From positions 2,976,001-3,040,000 of the forward strand of contig NC_006396.1 of the NCBI RefSeq assembly GCF_000011085.1: a DNA stretch of 64,000 nt, read 5' to 3'. Position 1 is the first letter of the stretch. The number at the start of each line of letters is the position of its first letter. The DNA comes from Haloarcula marismortui ATCC 43049 (GTDB taxonomy: Archaea > Halobacteriota > Halobacteria > Halobacteriales > Haloarculaceae). The notes under the pieces were generated by a model, which worked only from the letters and a program-made list of their open reading frames with translations, was not told where the DNA came from and did not search any database. Both the position numbers and the translations under genes were made by a program. Below are positions 16,992-23,581 of this stretch, in pieces.

Positions 16992-19508
16992 TCAGTCGTC
17001 GCCGTCGACGGGCGCGGGTGGACGCGACCGCCCGAACCCGAGTATGCCACGAACCGACCAGTCAGCGTTGAACACTCGGTCCCAGACGACAAGTGCGGAG
17101 GGGATCACCAGCAGGGACGCGAGGAACGCGTACCCGATCGACAACGCCGTCAGGATACCGAACTGGCCGATTGCGGGGAACACAGCCAGCCCGAGCACGC
17201 CGATGCCGAACGTCGTGGTGAGCATACTCCCGAACAGCGCGCCACCGGTCCCGCGAACGGTCCGGTCCAGTGCCGTTTCGAGGTCGTTTTCGTCGAACTC
17301 GTCGGCAAACCGGTGGGTGACGTGGACTGAGTAGTCGACCCCCAGTCCGATAGTTATCGCCAACATCGTCGCTGTCAACGCGTTGAACGGGATGCTGAGC
17401 ACCCGCATCGTCCCGCCGAGCCACGCCACCGTGACGACGACAGGAATGATGTTCACGAGGCCGAGCGACGGCCGTCCCTCCAGCATATTGTAGATGAGGA
17501 TGAGGAACACCGACGCGCCGATAAGTGCGATCGCCAGCGACTGGATCGCAGACTCCAGGATGAGGTCCGAGACGGCCTGGAACACGACAACCGAGCCGGT
17601 TGCCGTCGCGTCATACCGGAAGTCGTCGGCAACGTTTCGCGTATCGGTGGTCACCTCTGCGTCGGTCGCGTCCGCCTCGACGGTATAGACAACGCGTGCG
17701 CTCCGGTAGTCCTCGGTGATGTACTCGAGGGCCTGGCCACGGGCCGACGAGTCGAGCAGGTACTCGTATATCTGTTCGAGGTTATCGTCCGGGATCCCGT
17801 TGTCGTTCCGGTCGTTGCGCTCGACCATTCGGCGGAACTCGGGGTCCTCGTCCGCCCGGTCCCGGATGACGGTCACGATAGACGTCGAATCAGCACGCCC
17901 GTCTTCTCGAACAAACGAGTCCGGCGGGTTGTTCCCCGCCCGATACATCTGCTCAAGCGCCGCGTCGTTCCGCATCGGCCCCTCTACGTACACCGTCGCC
18001 TGACTGGACTGGGTCGTGTCGAACCGTTCATCGAGGAAGTTCGTCACCTCCGTTACGGTGTATTCGCTCGGAGCGAACGGCTCCGGCAGGGCCTCGACGA
18101 AGTCCGGGTTCTCCTCGGGCGGCAGGAAGTCCTCCTGACTGAACGACGTCGAGACGCCGGTGGCGTAGTAGCTGGCACCGACCGTAGATACGAGGATGAG
18201 CACGAGGAAGATGATCGGGGCGCGGTTCGCGATGACGACACCGCCGCGCAACACGTCACTGAGTGCCGAATCCTCCGCGCCCAGCGGCGTCTCGCTGAAC
18301 GTCGGAATTGGGTAGCGCTGGCGGAGCCGGTCCAGTTCTACCTTCGCCGCGGGCAGGAACACCCCGAAGATGAGGAAGGTGAAGGTGATACCGACAGAGG
18401 CCACGTAGCCGAAGTCCTGAATCGGCGGCAGTGCGCTGGTGAGGTTCGCGGCAAACCCGATGACTGTCGTGCCGGTCACGATGAAGAACGCGACAAGCAG
18501 TTGGTCGGTCGTGATCCGCATCGATTTCTGGATGGACGCCCCGGTTTCACGCTCCTCCCGATATCGGTTGACGGCGTGAATCCCGAAGTCGATACCCACC
18601 GCCAGTAACAGCGGTGGCACGGCGATGAGCATCTGCGAGAAGGGGATGCCGGCAAGCCCCATGAAGCCGAACGTCCAGACGACGGCCATAAACAGCGCGA
18701 GCAGGCCAAGCGCCATGTCCGCGAGGTCGCGGTAGGCAATCGTCAGGAAAAACAGAATGAACAGCACTGCCGCGGGCACGGTCAGGATGAGCGAGTCGCC
18801 GACGACGTTCGAGAACTCGTCTGCGACGATACCGCTGCCGAACAGGGTGATGCCACCGTGGTCAGCGCTGGAGACAGTGAACCCGGCCTGTTTCTGGATA
18901 CTCGTTAGCGGACTCGAACCGCCCTGGCCTGACCCGGAGGAGATTCCCGCCGGGACCTCGTGTGTGACGACTCCGATGGTCGCCGACGCCGAGGCGGCTT
19001 TGCGGTTGAAGTCCTTGCTCAGTAGTGATTTGAACCGGGGATTCTGCTCGGCCGCGCGCCTGACGGCAGCGTCGATTTCACTCGGCGTTGCGGCTTCGAC
19101 AGCATAGACCTGTTGTTCAGTTGTCGTCGCTTCCGGGTCTAGCTGCTTGGCGACAATGCTGGCGGCGCTTGAGGTCGATGTGACACGGAGCGTTCCGCGC
19201 TGTTCCAGCCGGTGCTGTGACCTGAGCATCCGGAGTAGCGCCGGCTTCGAGAGCACGTTCGTCTCCTGCTGGATCAGCTGTGTGCTCCCTGTATCCGGTG
19301 AGAAGGTCGGCGAGAACTTGTCGTTGACCTCCTGTAGTGCCTCCTCGGCCGGCAGTCCGGTCGTAAACTGCGATGTCCCGGAATTGGTCGAGACGCCCCC
19401 GAGGCCGGCGCTGAAGACCACCGTCACGACCAGGAAGAGGAGCACCACCTTCCGTGAATCGTGGACGATGCGGTCGTCTGCCCAATCGATGTAGCGCTGA
19501 TAGTCCAT
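16992..19508 (-). CDS. RND/MMPL superfamily exporter
   Basis: 838 residues with the duplicated RND architecture: an N-terminal helix, an ~170-residue extracellular domain (SQFTTGLPAEEALQ), five or six helices (~230-430), then a second helix near 445, a second extracellular domain (~470-650) and a final helix cluster. Typical motifs are GIDFGIHAVNRYREE in the first half and GLGVDYSVHVTHRFADE in the second; both carry the transmembrane Asp of proton-coupled MMPL transporters. Relatives export lipids, hopanoids or hydrophobic compounds. Its start lies 3 bp after the stop of the CARDB-type surface protein upstream, so the two form an operon, with a divergent TetR as likely regulator. Confidence 0.94.
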   Translation of the reverse strand: MDYQRYIDWADDRIVHDSRKVVLLFLVVTVVFSAGLGGVSTNSGTSQFTTGLPAEEALQEVNDKFSPTFSPDTGSTQLIQQETNVLSKPALLRMLRSQHRLEQRGTLRVTSTSSAASIVAKQLDPEATTTEQQVYAVEAATPSEIDAAVRRAAEQNPRFKSLLSKDFNRKAASASATIGVVTHEVPAGISSGSGQGGSSPLTSIQKQAGFTVSSADHGGITLFGSGIVADEFSNVVGDSLILTVPAAVLFILFFLTIAYRDLADMALGLLALFMAVVWTFGFMGLAGIPFSQMLIAVPPLLLAVGIDFGIHAVNRYREERETGASIQKSMRITTDQLLVAFFIVTGTTVIGFAANLTSALPPIQDFGYVASVGITFTFLIFGVFLPAAKVELDRLRQRYPIPTFSETPLGAEDSALSDVLRGGVVIANRAPIIFLVLILVSTVGASYYATGVSTSFSQEDFLPPEENPDFVEALPEPFAPSEYTVTEVTNFLDERFDTTQSSQATVYVEGPMRNDAALEQMYRAGNNPPDSFVREDGRADSTSIVTVIRDRADEDPEFRRMVERNDRNDNGIPDDNLEQIYEYLLDSSARGQALEYITEDYRSARVVYTVEADATDAEVTTDTRNVADDFRYDATATGSVVVFQAVSDLILESAIQSLAIALIGASVFLILIYNMLEGRPSLGLVNIIPVVVTVAWLGGTMRVLSIPFNALTATMLAITIGLGVDYSVHVTHRFADEFDENDLETALDRTVRGTGGALFGSMLTTTFGIGVLGLAVFPAIGQFGILTALSIGYAFLASLLVIPSALVVWDRVFNADWSVRGILGFGRSRPPAPVDGDD

Positions 19509-19511
19509 GCG

Positions 19512-21437
19512 TTAGCGGAACCTGAAGTAGCCGCCGATGGCCAGGGCGGCCACGAGTGCGACGCCGATAATCGCCGTCAGTGGTGAACTGCCACCGCCGG
19601 AGTTGGTCACGGAGACCGGAAGCCGGTAGGTATCAGACACCGGCGTATCTCCGTCCGGTTCCTCGTACTGGAAGTCCACCGAAACGGGGTAGCTCTTCGT
19701 CATCGCGGCACCGCTTGCGCTGATGCCGAACTCGATGGTTGTTGACTCACCCTGGTCAAGGCTGTCGACGTACGCCTGGTCGTCCGAGACGGAGATCGGT
19801 GACTCGGCGAACAGTTTTGCCTCGATATCGGTCAGTCGCTGCCCGGCGTCGTTGGTGATAGTCACTTCGAGCGTGCTGGACCCGCCAACGTTGACGGACG
19901 CGTTCGTCGTCTCGACAATGAACTCATCGGCGCTCCCGTCGACGCTCTGTCGGATTTCGAGCGTGTCGCTCTCGCGCCTGTCGTCCTCACTGTTGCGGTA
20001 GGTGGCGACGAAATCGAACTGTCGTGGGCCGGCGTTCGCGTTATCGGACACGTCGGCATCGAACGAGACGGTCGCCGACTCGCCCGGCTCGAGATCGCCG
20101 ACTGCGTACTGGGTTTCCTTCGGCGAGACGTTGTCGTGGGAACTCTCCCAGTTCAGGACAACGTTACGGACCGTTCGGTCGCCAGTGTTGGTGAGTGACG
20201 CTTCCAGCGTGCCGTCGTCACCTGCCTGCAGGGTCGATTCAACGTCGCCTAGCTCGAAGGACTGCTCTGGCTCGGGCCGGATTCCGAGCGAGATGTCGTC
20301 AGCGACGCCGGCATCGCCTTCGGGGTCGTCGTAGCTTACCGACGCCGACAGGGCGTAGCTCTGTGTCTTGGCGTCGTCGCTGGCGCTTGCGTCGACGCTC
20401 ACCGTTCGCGTTTCACCGGGCTCCCAGGAGCCGACGAACTGCGACGTGGACTCGGACTGTCCGAACGTAATTGCGGTGTTCTGCGTGGCAAGCGACACTG
20501 TCGCGCCCGAGACCGTGACAGGACCGTCGTTGCGCAGGGTCACGTTGTACGTCCCGGAATCGCCGACAGCGACGTCACTGTCGGTACTTTCGACGGTGAA
20601 CGTTTGCTCGGGGTTGGGCGTAATACCGAGGGAGGAGGCGGTCGTGCTCTTTCGCACCCCGTCCGTGTCGTCGAAGTCGACCTGGAGGTCGAACTGATAC
20701 GGTTCGGCTCTCGTATCACCGCTCGCACCGACGCGGTACCGGAGGGTACGCTGTTCACCGGCCTCCCAGGTGTCGATAAACCGGGAGCTGCTGGCGTCGC
20801 CACCGACTGTGAGTTCGGAGTTCGTCGATTTCAGCGTTACCGAGGATTCTCGGGCCGGCTCGTCACCGGTGTTCTCGACAGTGACTGCGACCGTGCCGGT
20901 CGAATCCACGCGTGCACCGGAGTCGACGTTCACCACGTCAAAAGCCGCGTCGTCGTCGATTTCGATTTCGAGTTCGATCCGTTCGCTCGTGGTCGTTTCA
21001 GCCCGTGCACCGTCGCTTTCTGAGGCATAGCTTGTGTACTTGTATTCGACGATGACTGGAACGGTATAGTCTCCTGGGCTTGCACTGTCATCGACGCTCA
21101 CTTCGAAGGGAATCGGCTCCGTTTTTCCTTCTGGGACGGACCCAACGGCCTGTTTGTTCGTCGTCACCGTAATCGGGGCGTCGCCGCTGTTGACCTTGAC
21201 CATCGTTCCGCGGGCGGTCGTCACTTCGCTGTTCTGGACACCCTGGGTCGAAGACCCGGAGTCGATCGTTCCGCTGTTGACGAGGACGACGTCGAGTGTC
21301 GTCTCCTCACCGGGTGTGACGGTATTATCGACGAACGTTGCGTCGAAGTCGGGACTTCCGGTCACGGCGCCGATCGCCGTTCCGGATGCCATGAGCAATG
21401 CGACAACAGCCAGCGTCAGTAATGTTCGTGGTTTCAT
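19512..21437 (-). CDS. Secreted, membrane-anchored CARDB/COG1361 surface protein (exporter partner)
   Basis: 641 residues from the ATG at 21437 (MKPRTLLTLAV), favoured by an AAATAAC element ~30 bp upstream; an ATG at 21458 would add seven residues. A signal peptide is followed by five or so repeated CARDB/NEW3-like beta domains of ~100 residues. Each has a pattern like VGDSGTYNVTLRNDGPVTVSGATVSL and WEPGETRTVSV. The protein ends in a single C-terminal helix (SPLTAIIGVALVAALAIGGYF) and a short FRFR tail. It is probably an outward-facing adaptor or cell-surface scaffold for the MMPL exporter encoded 3 bp downstream. That role is inferred from the tight gene pairing. Confidence 0.9.
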   Translation of the reverse strand: MKPRTLLTLAVVALLMASGTAIGAVTGSPDFDATFVDNTVTPGEETTLDVVLVNSGTIDSGSSTQGVQNSEVTTARGTMVKVNSGDAPITVTTNKQAVGSVPEGKTEPIPFEVSVDDSASPGDYTVPVIVEYKYTSYASESDGARAETTTSERIELEIEIDDDAAFDVVNVDSGARVDSTGTVAVTVENTGDEPARESSVTLKSTNSELTVGGDASSSRFIDTWEAGEQRTLRYRVGASGDTRAEPYQFDLQVDFDDTDGVRKSTTASSLGITPNPEQTFTVESTDSDVAVGDSGTYNVTLRNDGPVTVSGATVSLATQNTAITFGQSESTSQFVGSWEPGETRTVSVDASASDDAKTQSYALSASVSYDDPEGDAGVADDISLGIRPEPEQSFELGDVESTLQAGDDGTLEASLTNTGDRTVRNVVLNWESSHDNVSPKETQYAVGDLEPGESATVSFDADVSDNANAGPRQFDFVATYRNSEDDRRESDTLEIRQSVDGSADEFIVETTNASVNVGGSSTLEVTITNDAGQRLTDIEAKLFAESPISVSDDQAYVDSLDQGESTTIEFGISASGAAMTKSYPVSVDFQYEEPDGDTPVSDTYRLPVSVTNSGGGSSPLTAIIGVALVAALAIGGYFRFR

Positions 21438-21557
21438 GCGTAGGGACACTTCGGACATGCCGTGTCGTTATTTCTATCCGGAGCGGACGTCATGCGTGGG
21501 AGATCGGCATATATGCCCACATACGTCTGTACAGACTCCCGCCCGAACCGTGTACAT

Positions 21558-21575
21558 CGAACGAACGTTCGGTCG
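21558..21575. promoter_or_regulatory. Candidate TetR operator 1
   Basis: CGAACGAACGTTCGGTCG is an 18-bp palindrome identical to the site at 21622-21639 except for the two central bases. It lies in the divergent region between the exporter operon and the tetR gene, about 120 bp from the exporter operon start. It is a likely binding site for the adjacent TetR protein. Confidence 0.6.
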
Positions 21576-21621: not shown

Positions 21622-21639
21622 CGAACGAATATTCGGTCG
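21622..21639. promoter_or_regulatory. Candidate TetR operator 2, overlapping the tetR transcription start
   Basis: CGAACGAATATTCGGTCG shares both 8-bp arms with operator 1, centre-to-centre 64 bp away. It sits between the tetR TATA element (AGATATTTA, ~21608-21616) and the ATG at 21642. Binding there would block initiation, so autorepression is expected. Confidence 0.65.
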
Positions 21640-21641
21640 GG

Positions 21642-22262
21642 ATGAGTGATGGAATTCCGTTCGCCGGGGAGCCAGCGGACTCGCACGAGGCGATAATGCG
21701 AGCCACGTTCCGTGCCCTCCGGGAATACGGGTATGCCGGACTTTCGATACAGCGAATCGCGGACGAGGCCGACCTCAGCAAATCGACGTTTTATCACCAC
21801 TTCGATGGCAAGGAGGACCTCCTGTTGTCGTTTCAGGAGTTCATCCTCACGGAATTTAACCGCATTTTTCAGATCGAGTCGACCGGCGACCCCGAACAGG
21901 ACATCAAGACGTTTGTCAGTCTCATTCTCGACGATTTCCCGGACTGCGTCGAAACGCCAACCAAGAACGCCGTACTCGGTTCGTACGTCGAGATGCGTGC
22001 TCAGGCAGTCCAGAACCCGGACTTCCGCGAGAAATTCACTGAGACGGACGAACTGTTCGCCCGACAACTCGTACAGATCATCGAGGACGGCATCGAACAG
22101 GGAGTCTTCGCCGATGTCGACCCCGACACGGTTTCGCGATTCATGATCACGATACTCGACGGTGTAATTCTTCAGAGCGCAACGCGCAACGACAATCCTG
22201 TCGCCGAGGTTCGGGATACCATCGACGAGTACATCGAAGAGACGCTGATTCTCAACACCTAG
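21642..22262 (+). CDS. TetR/AcrR family transcriptional regulator
   Basis: A 206-residue repressor. The N-terminal ~60 residues are a TetR HTH (IMRATFRALREYGYAGLS, IQRIADEADLSKSTFYHHF, DGKEDLL). The helical C-terminal domain would bind an inducer. It is divergent from the CARDB-MMPL exporter operon, and two near-identical 18-bp palindromes lie between them, the classic layout of a locally acting efflux repressor. Its last 4 bp overlap the end of the convergent HalX regulator gene. Ligand unknown, possibly the exported compound. Confidence 0.95.
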   Translation: MSDGIPFAGEPADSHEAIMRATFRALREYGYAGLSIQRIADEADLSKSTFYHHFDGKEDLLLSFQEFILTEFNRIFQIESTGDPEQDIKTFVSLILDDFPDCVETPTKNAVLGSYVEMRAQAVQNPDFREKFTETDELFARQLVQIIEDGIEQGVFADVDPDTVSRFMITILDGVILQSATRNDNPVAEVRDTIDEYIEETLILNT

Positions 22263-22831
22263 CTTCGGCTGATAGACTGGTACGTCTGTTTCAGCTCTTC
22301 GAAATCATCGTTCTCGGCGTGCAACATCCATTCCAGTTCCCTGGCACGTTCCTTTAGCTCCGTGTACTCGGCGCTCGATTCCAGTTGTGACGCGGACTTT
22401 TCGCGTTCCAGCACAGAGAGCTTCGAGGAAATCCGGAAGTACTCGTCGAGCCTATCGTCCTCGTCGGGTCTGTCGAGATGTTGATCGAGCGTCGACAGGA
22501 GCGTCGACTGGCCGACCGGCTTCTGGAGGTAGTCATCGAACGGCATCTCCAGAATATTCAGATCAGCGTCGACCGCGGTCAGCATGATGATGATGCCGTC
22601 GTACCCTCGCTCACGCAACCGCGAAAGCACGTCGTCACCGTGCACGTCAGGCATTCGTCGGTCGAGCAACACAGCGTCGAACTCCGGGCCGGCAGCGTCG
22701 AGCGCTGCTTGGCCACTGTACGCAACCGTCGTCTCGTAACGCTCACCCAGTTTCAGGGCCTGCGTGTCGGCGACGTCGTGTTCGTCGTCAACGACGAGCA
22801 CCCGCGGCGGGCCGCCTGTTGTTCTGGACAC
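22259..22831 (-). CDS. HalX-domain response regulator
   Basis: About 190 residues from a GTG at 22831; a TTG at 22858 would add nine residues. TATATG at 22862-22867 is placed about 33 bp upstream of the GTG. Residues 10-125 are a CheY-like receiver with VLVVDDEHD, the phospho-acceptor Asp57 in VLLDRRMPD and Lys in YLQKPVG. The C-terminal ~65 residues form the haloarchaeal HalX helical domain (DEYFRISSKLSVLEREKSA, then a coiled-coil-like tail). There is no DNA-binding domain, so output is probably protein-protein. It converges on tetR with a 4-bp overlap. An IS6 element now separates it from the divergent membrane PAS-like gene. Confidence 0.9.
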   Translation of the reverse strand: MSRTTGGPPRVLVVDDEHDVADTQALKLGERYETTVAYSGQAALDAAGPEFDAVLLDRRMPDVHGDDVLSRLRERGYDGIIIMLTAVDADLNILEMPFDDYLQKPVGQSTLLSTLDQHLDRPDEDDRLDEYFRISSKLSVLEREKSASQLESSAEYTELKERARELEWMLHAENDDFEELKQTYQSISRS

Positions 22832-22877
22832 AGTATTACGCAGGTCTAGGGCTGGCAACTGTATATGTCTTATCGGC

Positions 22878-22885: not shown

Positions 22886-23581
22886 GGTCGTGTTTAGTTA
22901 AGCGTGAAAAGTGAGGCGAGAGTGATTTCAGCTGTCCATGGCAGAAATCACGCGCCTCAGCGGATGTAGAGACTGGATTGATTTGGGTTTTGTGGAGCGC
23001 GAGCGGACACCCGAGCCAGCGATGGCGTTGGGTATTCAATCGCACGTTGCGGGCCTCTCGCTATCGAATACCGTTGAATTACTCGAAGATCTGGGTGTCC
23101 AACGCAGTCGCAAAGCCGTCCACGATTGGGTGCAGAAAGCCGATCTACAGCCCGACTCTGGAAAATCTCCGAATCAGATTGCGCTTGACGAAACAGTGAT
23201 TCGGATCAACGATCAGCAGTTCTGGCTGTACGCCGCGGCCGATCCGCAGTCGAACGAACTGCTTCACATCCGGCTATTTGCGACGACTACGACCACTCTC
23301 ACAGAAATTTTCTTGCGCGAACTTCGGCAAAAACACGACGTCGAAACTGCCGTCTTTCTCGTCGATGGCGCTCAACATCTTCAAACTGCACTGCAACGAG
23401 CTGGACTCCGATTTCAGATGTCTCGCCACGGAAATCGGAACGCTGTCGAACGGATTTTTCGAGAACTAAAGCGACGAACCTCGTCGTTTTCGAATTGCTT
23501 TAGCCATGTCGAACCGGAAACAGCCGAAAATTGGTTGCTGAGTTTCGCTCGCTGGCACAATGCTACTAACTAAACACTACC
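22886..23581 (+). mobile_element. Complete IS6-family insertion sequence, 696 bp
   Basis: The element is bounded by 15-bp terminal inverted repeats: left GGTCGTGTTTAGTTA and right (reverse-complemented) GGTAGTGTTTAGTTA, 14 of 15 identical. Exact 8-bp flanking duplications of AGCCGCCT confirm both ends. It carries one transposase gene occupying most of its length. An intact frame, near-perfect ends and an undecayed target duplication indicate a fairly recent insertion that may still be active. Confidence 0.93.
22938..23573 (+). CDS. IS6-family DDE transposase
   Basis: A 211-residue transposase, a normal length for short haloarchaeal IS6/IS240-like elements. The catalytic triad is visible: Asp84 in ALDETVIRI, Asp143 in FLVDGAQHL and Glu171 in NAVERIFRELKRR, followed by the family's basic residues. 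The N-terminal ~65 residues contain the HTH (LSLSNTVELLEDLGVQRSRKAVHDWV). It catalyses replicative cut-and-join transposition through cointegrates. The frame is intact from ATG to TAA. It is less GC-rich and less acidic than its neighbours, as expected for a mobile gene. Confidence 0.95.
   Translation: MAEITRLSGCRDWIDLGFVERERTPEPAMALGIQSHVAGLSLSNTVELLEDLGVQRSRKAVHDWVQKADLQPDSGKSPNQIALDETVIRINDQQFWLYAAADPQSNELLHIRLFATTTTTLTEIFLRELRQKHDVETAVFLVDGAQHLQTALQRAGLRFQMSRHGNRNAVERIFRELKRRTSSFSNCFSHVEPETAENWLLSFARWHNATN

Follow-up and report, generated by a model that had tools for sequence, protein, structure and literature searches.

A chain of Ig-like domains encoded directly before an RND-type exporter in Haloarcula marismortui raises the question of whether the chain contributes to the working of the pump, and of what use such an addition might be in this envelope. 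To our knowledge, haloarchaea have no outer membrane. In the window (the whole stretch of 64,000 nucleotides that was analysed) the two genes lie on the same strand, the CARDB gene upstream:

16992..19508, minus strand: MMPL/RND exporter of 838 aa with an RND fold and two extracytoplasmic porter loops (ORF, Pfam, model)
19512..21437, minus strand: CARDB/NEW3 partner of 641 aa, with a signal peptide, five Ig-like domains and a C-terminal TM helix

The CARDB ORF extends over 19512–21458 on the minus strand, its start being probably the ATG at 21437, and 3 bases separate its stop codon from the ATG of the MMPL gene. The pump scores 90.3 bits with Pfam MMPL (cut-off 20.5), and its partner 54.6 bits with CARDB (cut-off 22.7) and 47.4 bits with NPCBM_assoc/NEW3 (cut-off 24.4). 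The original prediction of a five-domain CARDB/NEW3 protein with a single C-terminal helix, ending 3 bp before an RND gene, is confirmed by ORFs, Pfam and AlphaFold2.

The AlphaFold2 model of the pump (52-row alignment; mean pLDDT 81.6, pTM 0.72) shows an RND fold. MmpL4 and MmpL5 were the first Foldseek matches, with NPC1, HpnN and MmpL3 listed too. By Z score the top match is CmeB (8gjj, Z 44.4, 554 aligned, rmsd 5.0), tied with NPC1 (5u74, Z 44.2, 755 aligned, rmsd 3.8) and MmpL4 (9u4t, Z 44.1, 697 aligned, rmsd 4.5). The pump falls below the cut-off of the HAE3 family TIGR00921 of NCBIfam, with 223.8 against 351.9 bits. Two acidic residues of its membrane domain stand out:

18588..18590, minus strand: MMPL Asp307 in TM4, a predicted energy-coupling acid that is D in all 52 rows
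17334..17336, minus strand: MMPL Asp725, predicted energy-coupling acid in TM10, beside Tyr726; D or E in 51 of 52 rows

Tyr726 is invariant (52/52 rows), and the residue beside Asp307 is F in 43 rows and Y in 9. The energy-coupling role of both acids is assumed here from the MmpL family; the conservation of the TM4 and TM10 acids and of Tyr726 is as expected for an ion-driven pump of MmpL type.

The model of the CARDB protein (52-row alignment; mean pLDDT 89.6, pTM 0.59) shows a signal helix followed by five beta-sandwich domains and by one helix at residues 621–640. We set the domain borders at about 24–165, 166–279, 280–393, 394–505 and 506–614 (D1 to D5). The parts that matter for a possible contact with the pump are:

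20943..21368, minus strand: D1, membrane-distal head, residues 24–165, 12 columns of at least 90% identity
19596..20258, minus strand: D4–D5, membrane-proximal base, residues 394–614, the most conserved part and a candidate pump contact
19518..19577, minus strand: C-terminal TM helix, residues 621–640 (AlphaFold2 model)

Among 52 CARDB proteins, the columns of at least 90% identity are distributed as 12 in D1, 6 in D2, 4 in D3, 11 in D4 and 19 in D5, and D2 and D3 are often absent (occupancy 0.64 and 0.76). A conserved base and a conserved head joined by a variable spacer would fit an adaptor that is mounted on the pump and adjustable in its reach. The structure matches of the protein are mostly generic Ig chains, with archaeal Fusexin1 listed first. 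D5 (window 19596–19922) also finds Fusexin1 as its best match (7p4l, Z 11.7, 101 aligned, rmsd 2.4), but the score is tied with those of sialidases and other Ig domains; the likeness is probably that of a common fold, and no function is drawn from it.

The unit is repeated within the genome. Five full-length pumps were found on the chromosome and smaller contigs, and all five have a CARDB gene directly upstream, at gaps of 3–27 bp. Two other MMPL-family matches were not counted as pumps, namely a frame of 111 aa (C5:42645-42860) and one of 522 aa (C8:2841739-2842182) that matches MMPL weakly, at 23.2 bits. The pump at C5:59.6-61.9 kb shares 24% identity with the window pump and is still paired. 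The closest named relatives of the window pump, with 94–96% identity, belong to Haloarcula species.

In relatives of class H, a locus was taken as paired when a CARDB gene lay directly upstream on the same strand within 200 bp. The original prediction had named separation of the two genes in most relatives as the result that would count against it, and class H presents the opposite: 71 of 80 loci are directly paired in a sample that takes the 80 top-ranking of 452 confirmed relatives in named genomes and is therefore biased towards close ones. Two more of the 80 (L025, L026) have the order CARDB-pump-pump, in which two different MMPL pumps stand in tandem behind one CARDB gene, and seven (L046, L049, L060, L064, L073, L082, L091) are partner-less. 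A second, HAE3-like class of pumps is spread across the phylum and is paired in 28 of 30 loci, the exceptions being L116 and L129; L100, the fifth pair of the window genome itself, is counted among the 30. Six of these pairs are CARDB-first, and 22 are pump-first, that is, in reversed order. The ORFs of the pump-first pairs overlap by 1–4 bases in 21 of 22 cases and leave a 20-base gap in one; each ORF was started at its first start codon, so these figures are upper limits of overlap.

A less biased sample was taken from 18 other genomes of the order, with pairing tallied by hand. Class-H pumps are paired in 17 of 20 testable cases (a twenty-first, G294:C87, is cut by a contig end and lies outside the 20), HAE3-like pumps in 4 of 5 (for two of the four pairs, G134:C28 and G297:C12, the call was made from extended partial matches instead of ORFs), and lower-scoring pumps in 0 of 25 under the thresholds applied, which gives 21 of 50 pumps overall. 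Pairing therefore depends on the class of pump. Since 7 of the 80 class-H pumps and all 25 lower-scoring ones are partner-less, the archaeal RND pumps covered here do not need a partner in general. Seen from the other gene, 27 CARDB-family places (a weak match, G151:C8, excluded) lie beside MMPL in 21 cases, beside ABC-2 genes in 4 and beside neither in 2. No ORF of L020–L129 matched both HMMs as a CARDB-MMPL fusion would. The two-gene unit is real and strongly conserved.

The pump classes also differ in a loop of the second extracytoplasmic domain:

17784..17816, minus strand: Ca2+-site-like loop NDRNDNGIPDD of the MMPL protein (motif; putative metal binding)

Raw counts of the pattern D-x-[ND]-x-[ND]-G-x-P are 75/75 for the class-H pumps of the pair set and 0/29 for HAE3-like pumps. 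The pattern is also present in 11/11 class-H pumps at the nine loci where no partner gene stands directly upstream, in 4/4 further class-H pumps (L172–L175) and in 4/9 lower-scoring pumps (L177–L185). The loop is thus typical of class H, yet it occurs outside class H too. By its motif it may bind a metal.

The nine lower-scoring loci L177–L185 have no CARDB-HMM neighbour in any case. Six of them, the haloarchaeal L177–L182, contain large MMPL ORFs of 1019–1605 aa, whose extracytoplasmic loop 1 is enlarged to about 380–610 residues as compared with about 235–250 in L183–L185. This enlargement recalls, in idea, the coiled-coil domain of MmpL4/5. Loop 1 was read by eye in three of them and is coiled-coil-like in L179 and L180, less so in L182; the idea that a coiled-coil insertion substitutes for the CARDB partner is only partly borne out. 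A TrmB-like gene, also recognized by eye, adjoins L177, L179, L181 and L182.

The two proteins vary together. Distances among CARDB proteins and among pumps are correlated with r 0.82 over 75 class-H pairs, which was matched by 0 of 1000 permutations (highest 0.13); for the five pairs of the window genome alone, r is 0.57 and was reached in 82 of 1000 permutations. At least one of the three nearest tree neighbours is common to the trees of both proteins in 99 of 104 pairs, a set in which one window-genome pair is entered twice (own5 and L100) and the CARDB ORF of L102 is a 120-aa piece. The correlation and the shared neighbours would fit contact and shared descent alike.

Pairing with an MMPL pump is not the only setting in which CARDB proteins occur. 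In L166, L168, L170 and L171, a CARDB-family gene is found together with an ABC ATPase; the ABC-2 permease is identified by Pfam in L166, L168 and L171 and by position and sequence only in L170, and the ABC genes of L166 lie on the strand opposite to the CARDB gene. When the L170 protein was used as a query, matches were obtained in 65 of 117 genomes, and 30 loci were fetched: 27 have an MMPL neighbour, two (those of the query itself and of its ortholog) an ABC ATPase, and one has neither, so that MMPL predominates as partner. CARDB proteins that are more distantly related, matched in 12 of 60 genomes, have an ABC ATPase alongside in 13 of 14 distinct places (drawn from 18 rows; two of the places lie in the window genome). 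As to a nearby permease, Pfam confirms one of MacB type in L016, L149 and L152, and a family search does so at C8:228338, the rest being unconfirmed. Profile comparison links the MMPL- and ABC-associated CARDB groups (probability 99.1, E 7.6e-19, 311 columns), although Ig repeats align easily.

Several neighbouring arrangements were seen in passing. On the chromosome of H. marismortui, an FtsX-type permease of 1021 aa (L136:4132-7197) lies beside an ABC ATPase-like ORF, and its chain contains a sub-cut-off CARDB match (17.7 vs 22.7 bits) and a sub-cut-off BatD-like Ig match. In L152–L159, from other Halobacteriota, a small membrane protein (identified by Pfam as Yip1 in L154), a CARDB-like protein and an ABC ATPase recur in this order; a MacB-type permease comes next in L152 by Pfam and is not visible in L158.

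We propose, with somewhat less than even confidence, that single-pass proteins made of CARDB/Ig chains are general exporter partners in archaea, homologues of which serve the unrelated RND-MMPL, ABC-2 and MacB/FtsX exporters. Our searches of open-access papers for CARDB proteins and archaeal exporters turned up none that describes CARDB proteins as shared by several exporter classes. The bacterial membrane fusion proteins AcrA, MacA and EmrA are likewise extracytoplasmic partners of RND and ABC exporters alike, and the CARDB group may resemble them in serving both. The resemblance would be across pump classes only, as the folds are not related and the archaeal partner has no outer membrane to connect to. 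Membrane fusion proteins have a helical hairpin, whereas the CARDB model has none, its longest ectodomain helix being of 8 residues; the Pfam scan gave no HlyD or lipoyl match, and membrane fusion proteins are absent from the listed structure matches.

The best working comparison for the pair is mycobacterial MmpS-MmpL. MmpS5-MmpL5 and MmpS4-MmpL4 each combine, in one operon, an MMPL pump with a bound single-pass beta-sandwich protein that contacts the TM and porter domains of MmpL (PMC12346298, PMC12803245). A single TM helix, a beta ectodomain and a gene beside that of an MmpL-type pump are common to MmpS and the CARDB protein. They differ in that MmpS has an N-terminal TM helix and one domain, the CARDB protein a C-terminal TM helix and five Ig domains; moreover, the window pump is modelled without a coiled-coil domain, unlike MmpL4/5, and the Pfam scan found no match of the CARDB protein to the MmpS family at E 0.01. 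AmeABCD is a more remote case. It includes an inducible HAE3 pump, AmeD, co-expressed with periplasmic AmeB and AmeC for monoterpene tolerance, but AmeB is LolA-like, AmeC is COG4447-like and the set includes the outer membrane protein AmeA, unlike the window pair (PMC6394551).

In haloarchaea the pairing is already known. In a 2024 study, RND permeases were reported to be paired with associated proteins in a selection of 21 haloarchaeal genomes, among them HVO_A0467 of Haloferax volcanii with HVO_A0466, an 'RND-T-associated protein' described as a glycosylated Ig fibre with a C-terminal TM (PMC11349517). Both loci have adjacent genes, with a probably secreted Ig-chain protein bearing a C-terminal TM upstream of an RND permease; the Haloferax genes, however, overlap by 1 base and their pump is iron-responsive, whereas the window genes are 3 bp apart, with a divergent tetR whose motif sites are unique in the genome. 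The likeness to HVO_A0466 rests on its description, while pairs of other Haloferax species were in our sample; fragments of the published HVO_A0467 peptides were not found in the pumps compared. The arrangement had been predicted to be distinctive, which is only partly right in view of this published association and of MmpS-MmpL (PMC11349517, PMC12346298, PMC12803245). What our analysis adds is the second class with reversed order, the tetR with unique sites, the Ca2+-site-like loop and the CARDB homologues beside ABC-2 and MacB-type exporters.

The tetR gene and two near-palindromes between it and the pair were absent from the original prediction:

21642..22262, plus strand: divergent TetR-family regulator, Pfam TetR_N with a BetI-type C-terminal domain
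21558..21575, no strand: near-palindrome CGAACGAACGTTCGGTCG, predicted TetR operator (motif search)
21622..21639, no strand: near-palindrome CGAACGAATATTCGGTCG, predicted TetR operator; its end lies 2 bases ahead of the tetR start

A slightly wider motif with one mismatch allowed, from an operator pattern that was derived from these two sites themselves, occurs at 2 places in the 4.27 Mb genome, exactly those of CGAACGAACGTTCGGTCG and CGAACGAATATTCGGTCG; the reversed control motif occurs nowhere in the 4.27 Mb. Among 22 divergent tetR-pair regions, the window included, 13 contain at least one palindrome site. Eight have the Haloarcula-type site, seven of these with both sites 64–65 bases apart, and five have a related TGA...TCA type; neither type was found in the other nine, one of which is only 94 bases long. 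A TetR gene adjoins four of the five pairs of the genome itself, one of these TetR frames being short (144 aa). Among relatives, 37 TetR-HMM matches fall in the 342 kb within 2.5 kb of 71 pairs and none in the 329 kb farther off; because local TetR genes served to build the HMM, the enrichment shows no more than the placement of such genes. A match lies near 31 of the 71 pairs, or 33 by a midpoint rule. The regulator was also considered as FadR, and this identity was rejected: the best NCBIfam match, a Bacillus-type FadR model, reaches 46 against 200 bits, far under the cut-off, and a literature search on the FadR operator consensus returned nothing relevant. A HalX response regulator gene (22259–22858) and an IS240-type transposase gene (Pfam DDE_Tnp_IS240, 22938–23573) lie close to tetR, and the transposase suggests a mobile neighbourhood.

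The reading that we prefer, with about an even chance of being right, is that of an exporter that can be induced and has a single-pass partner of its own, the two working as one unit in the manner of MmpS-MmpL. The CARDB and MMPL genes would encode one export unit, in which the MMPL protein is an RND pump predicted to be driven by an ion gradient through the TM4 and TM10 acids. The CARDB protein would be anchored beside the pump through its C-terminal helix, its membrane-proximal Ig domains docking on the porter domains to hold or assemble the pump, and the spacer of variable length would put the conserved distal domain out in the pseudoperiplasm. TetR would repress both transcription units via the two operators until a ligand relieves repression; the ligand may also be the substrate of the pump, most likely an amphiphilic or hydrophobic compound. 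As to the extracytoplasmic partner foreseen for the pump, adjacency in both orders, co-varying distances and conserved membrane-proximal domains support it from genomics, and contact with the pump is what we infer from them.

Export for the S-layer or of lipids was the function first suggested, and a tetR with genome-unique operators, together with five pairs on chromosome and smaller contigs, fits inducible efflux better than either. Transport of the cell's own membrane lipids or of envelope glycolipids by this unit, towards the outer leaflet or into the pseudoperiplasm and with the CARDB protein taking over the lipid, seems unlikely to us: the sequence and structure neighbours of the pump include the lipid or sterol handlers HpnN, MmpL3, NPC1 and Patched, but a dedicated tetR gene and several accessory copies are not in its favor, nor was any lipid gene seen among the five neighbouring proteins scanned. 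The CARDB protein might instead be cargo, a cell-surface or S-layer-linked fibre or adhesin whose placement needs the MMPL protein. Its Ig-chain architecture with an anchored C-terminus, the prevalence of generic Ig chains among its structure matches and the glycosylation reported for HVO_A0466 (PMC11349517) would agree with this. We regard it as distinctly improbable, however, because the protein has its own signal peptide, because conservation peaks in the part closest to the membrane (with the distal domain conserved as well) and because CARDB relatives accompany unrelated exporter classes.

Siderophore export, as proposed for the HVO_A0467 pump with HVO_A0466, draws on a 44-fold increase of HVO_A0467 under iron starvation and on the docking of schizokinen to its model (PMC11349517), and on the export of mycobactin by MmpS4/5-MmpL4/5 (PMC12803245). 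Against it, deletion of HVO_A0467 led to slight growth changes only, with neither advantage nor disadvantage under iron scarcity (PMC11349517). The IucA/IucC family, which covers one siderophore class, has no match in the H. marismortui genome (the control, Haloferax volcanii, has one), yet five pairs are kept; that absence weakens the case for siderophore export in this genome, and we give it a small probability. Mere co-regulation of two independent surface proteins would be compatible with a pump contact that is only inferred and with the pumps that lack a partner. It is hard to reconcile with both gene orders over a phylum, with ORFs that overlap in 21 of the 22 pump-first pairs and with distances and trees that co-vary, and we consider it very improbable. 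For the inducible exporter with its dedicated partner, an amphiphilic compound sensed by TetR is the most likely substrate.

Should the CARDB protein take part in the work of the pump, archaea with a single membrane would be using extracytoplasmic adaptors in an envelope that lacks an outer one. This would bear on what adaptors such as MmpS and the membrane fusion proteins may do besides bridging, that is, in assembly, gating or the hand-over of substrate across the pseudoperiplasm. The operator pair, unique in the genome, offers a direct route to the inducer and hence to the substrate.
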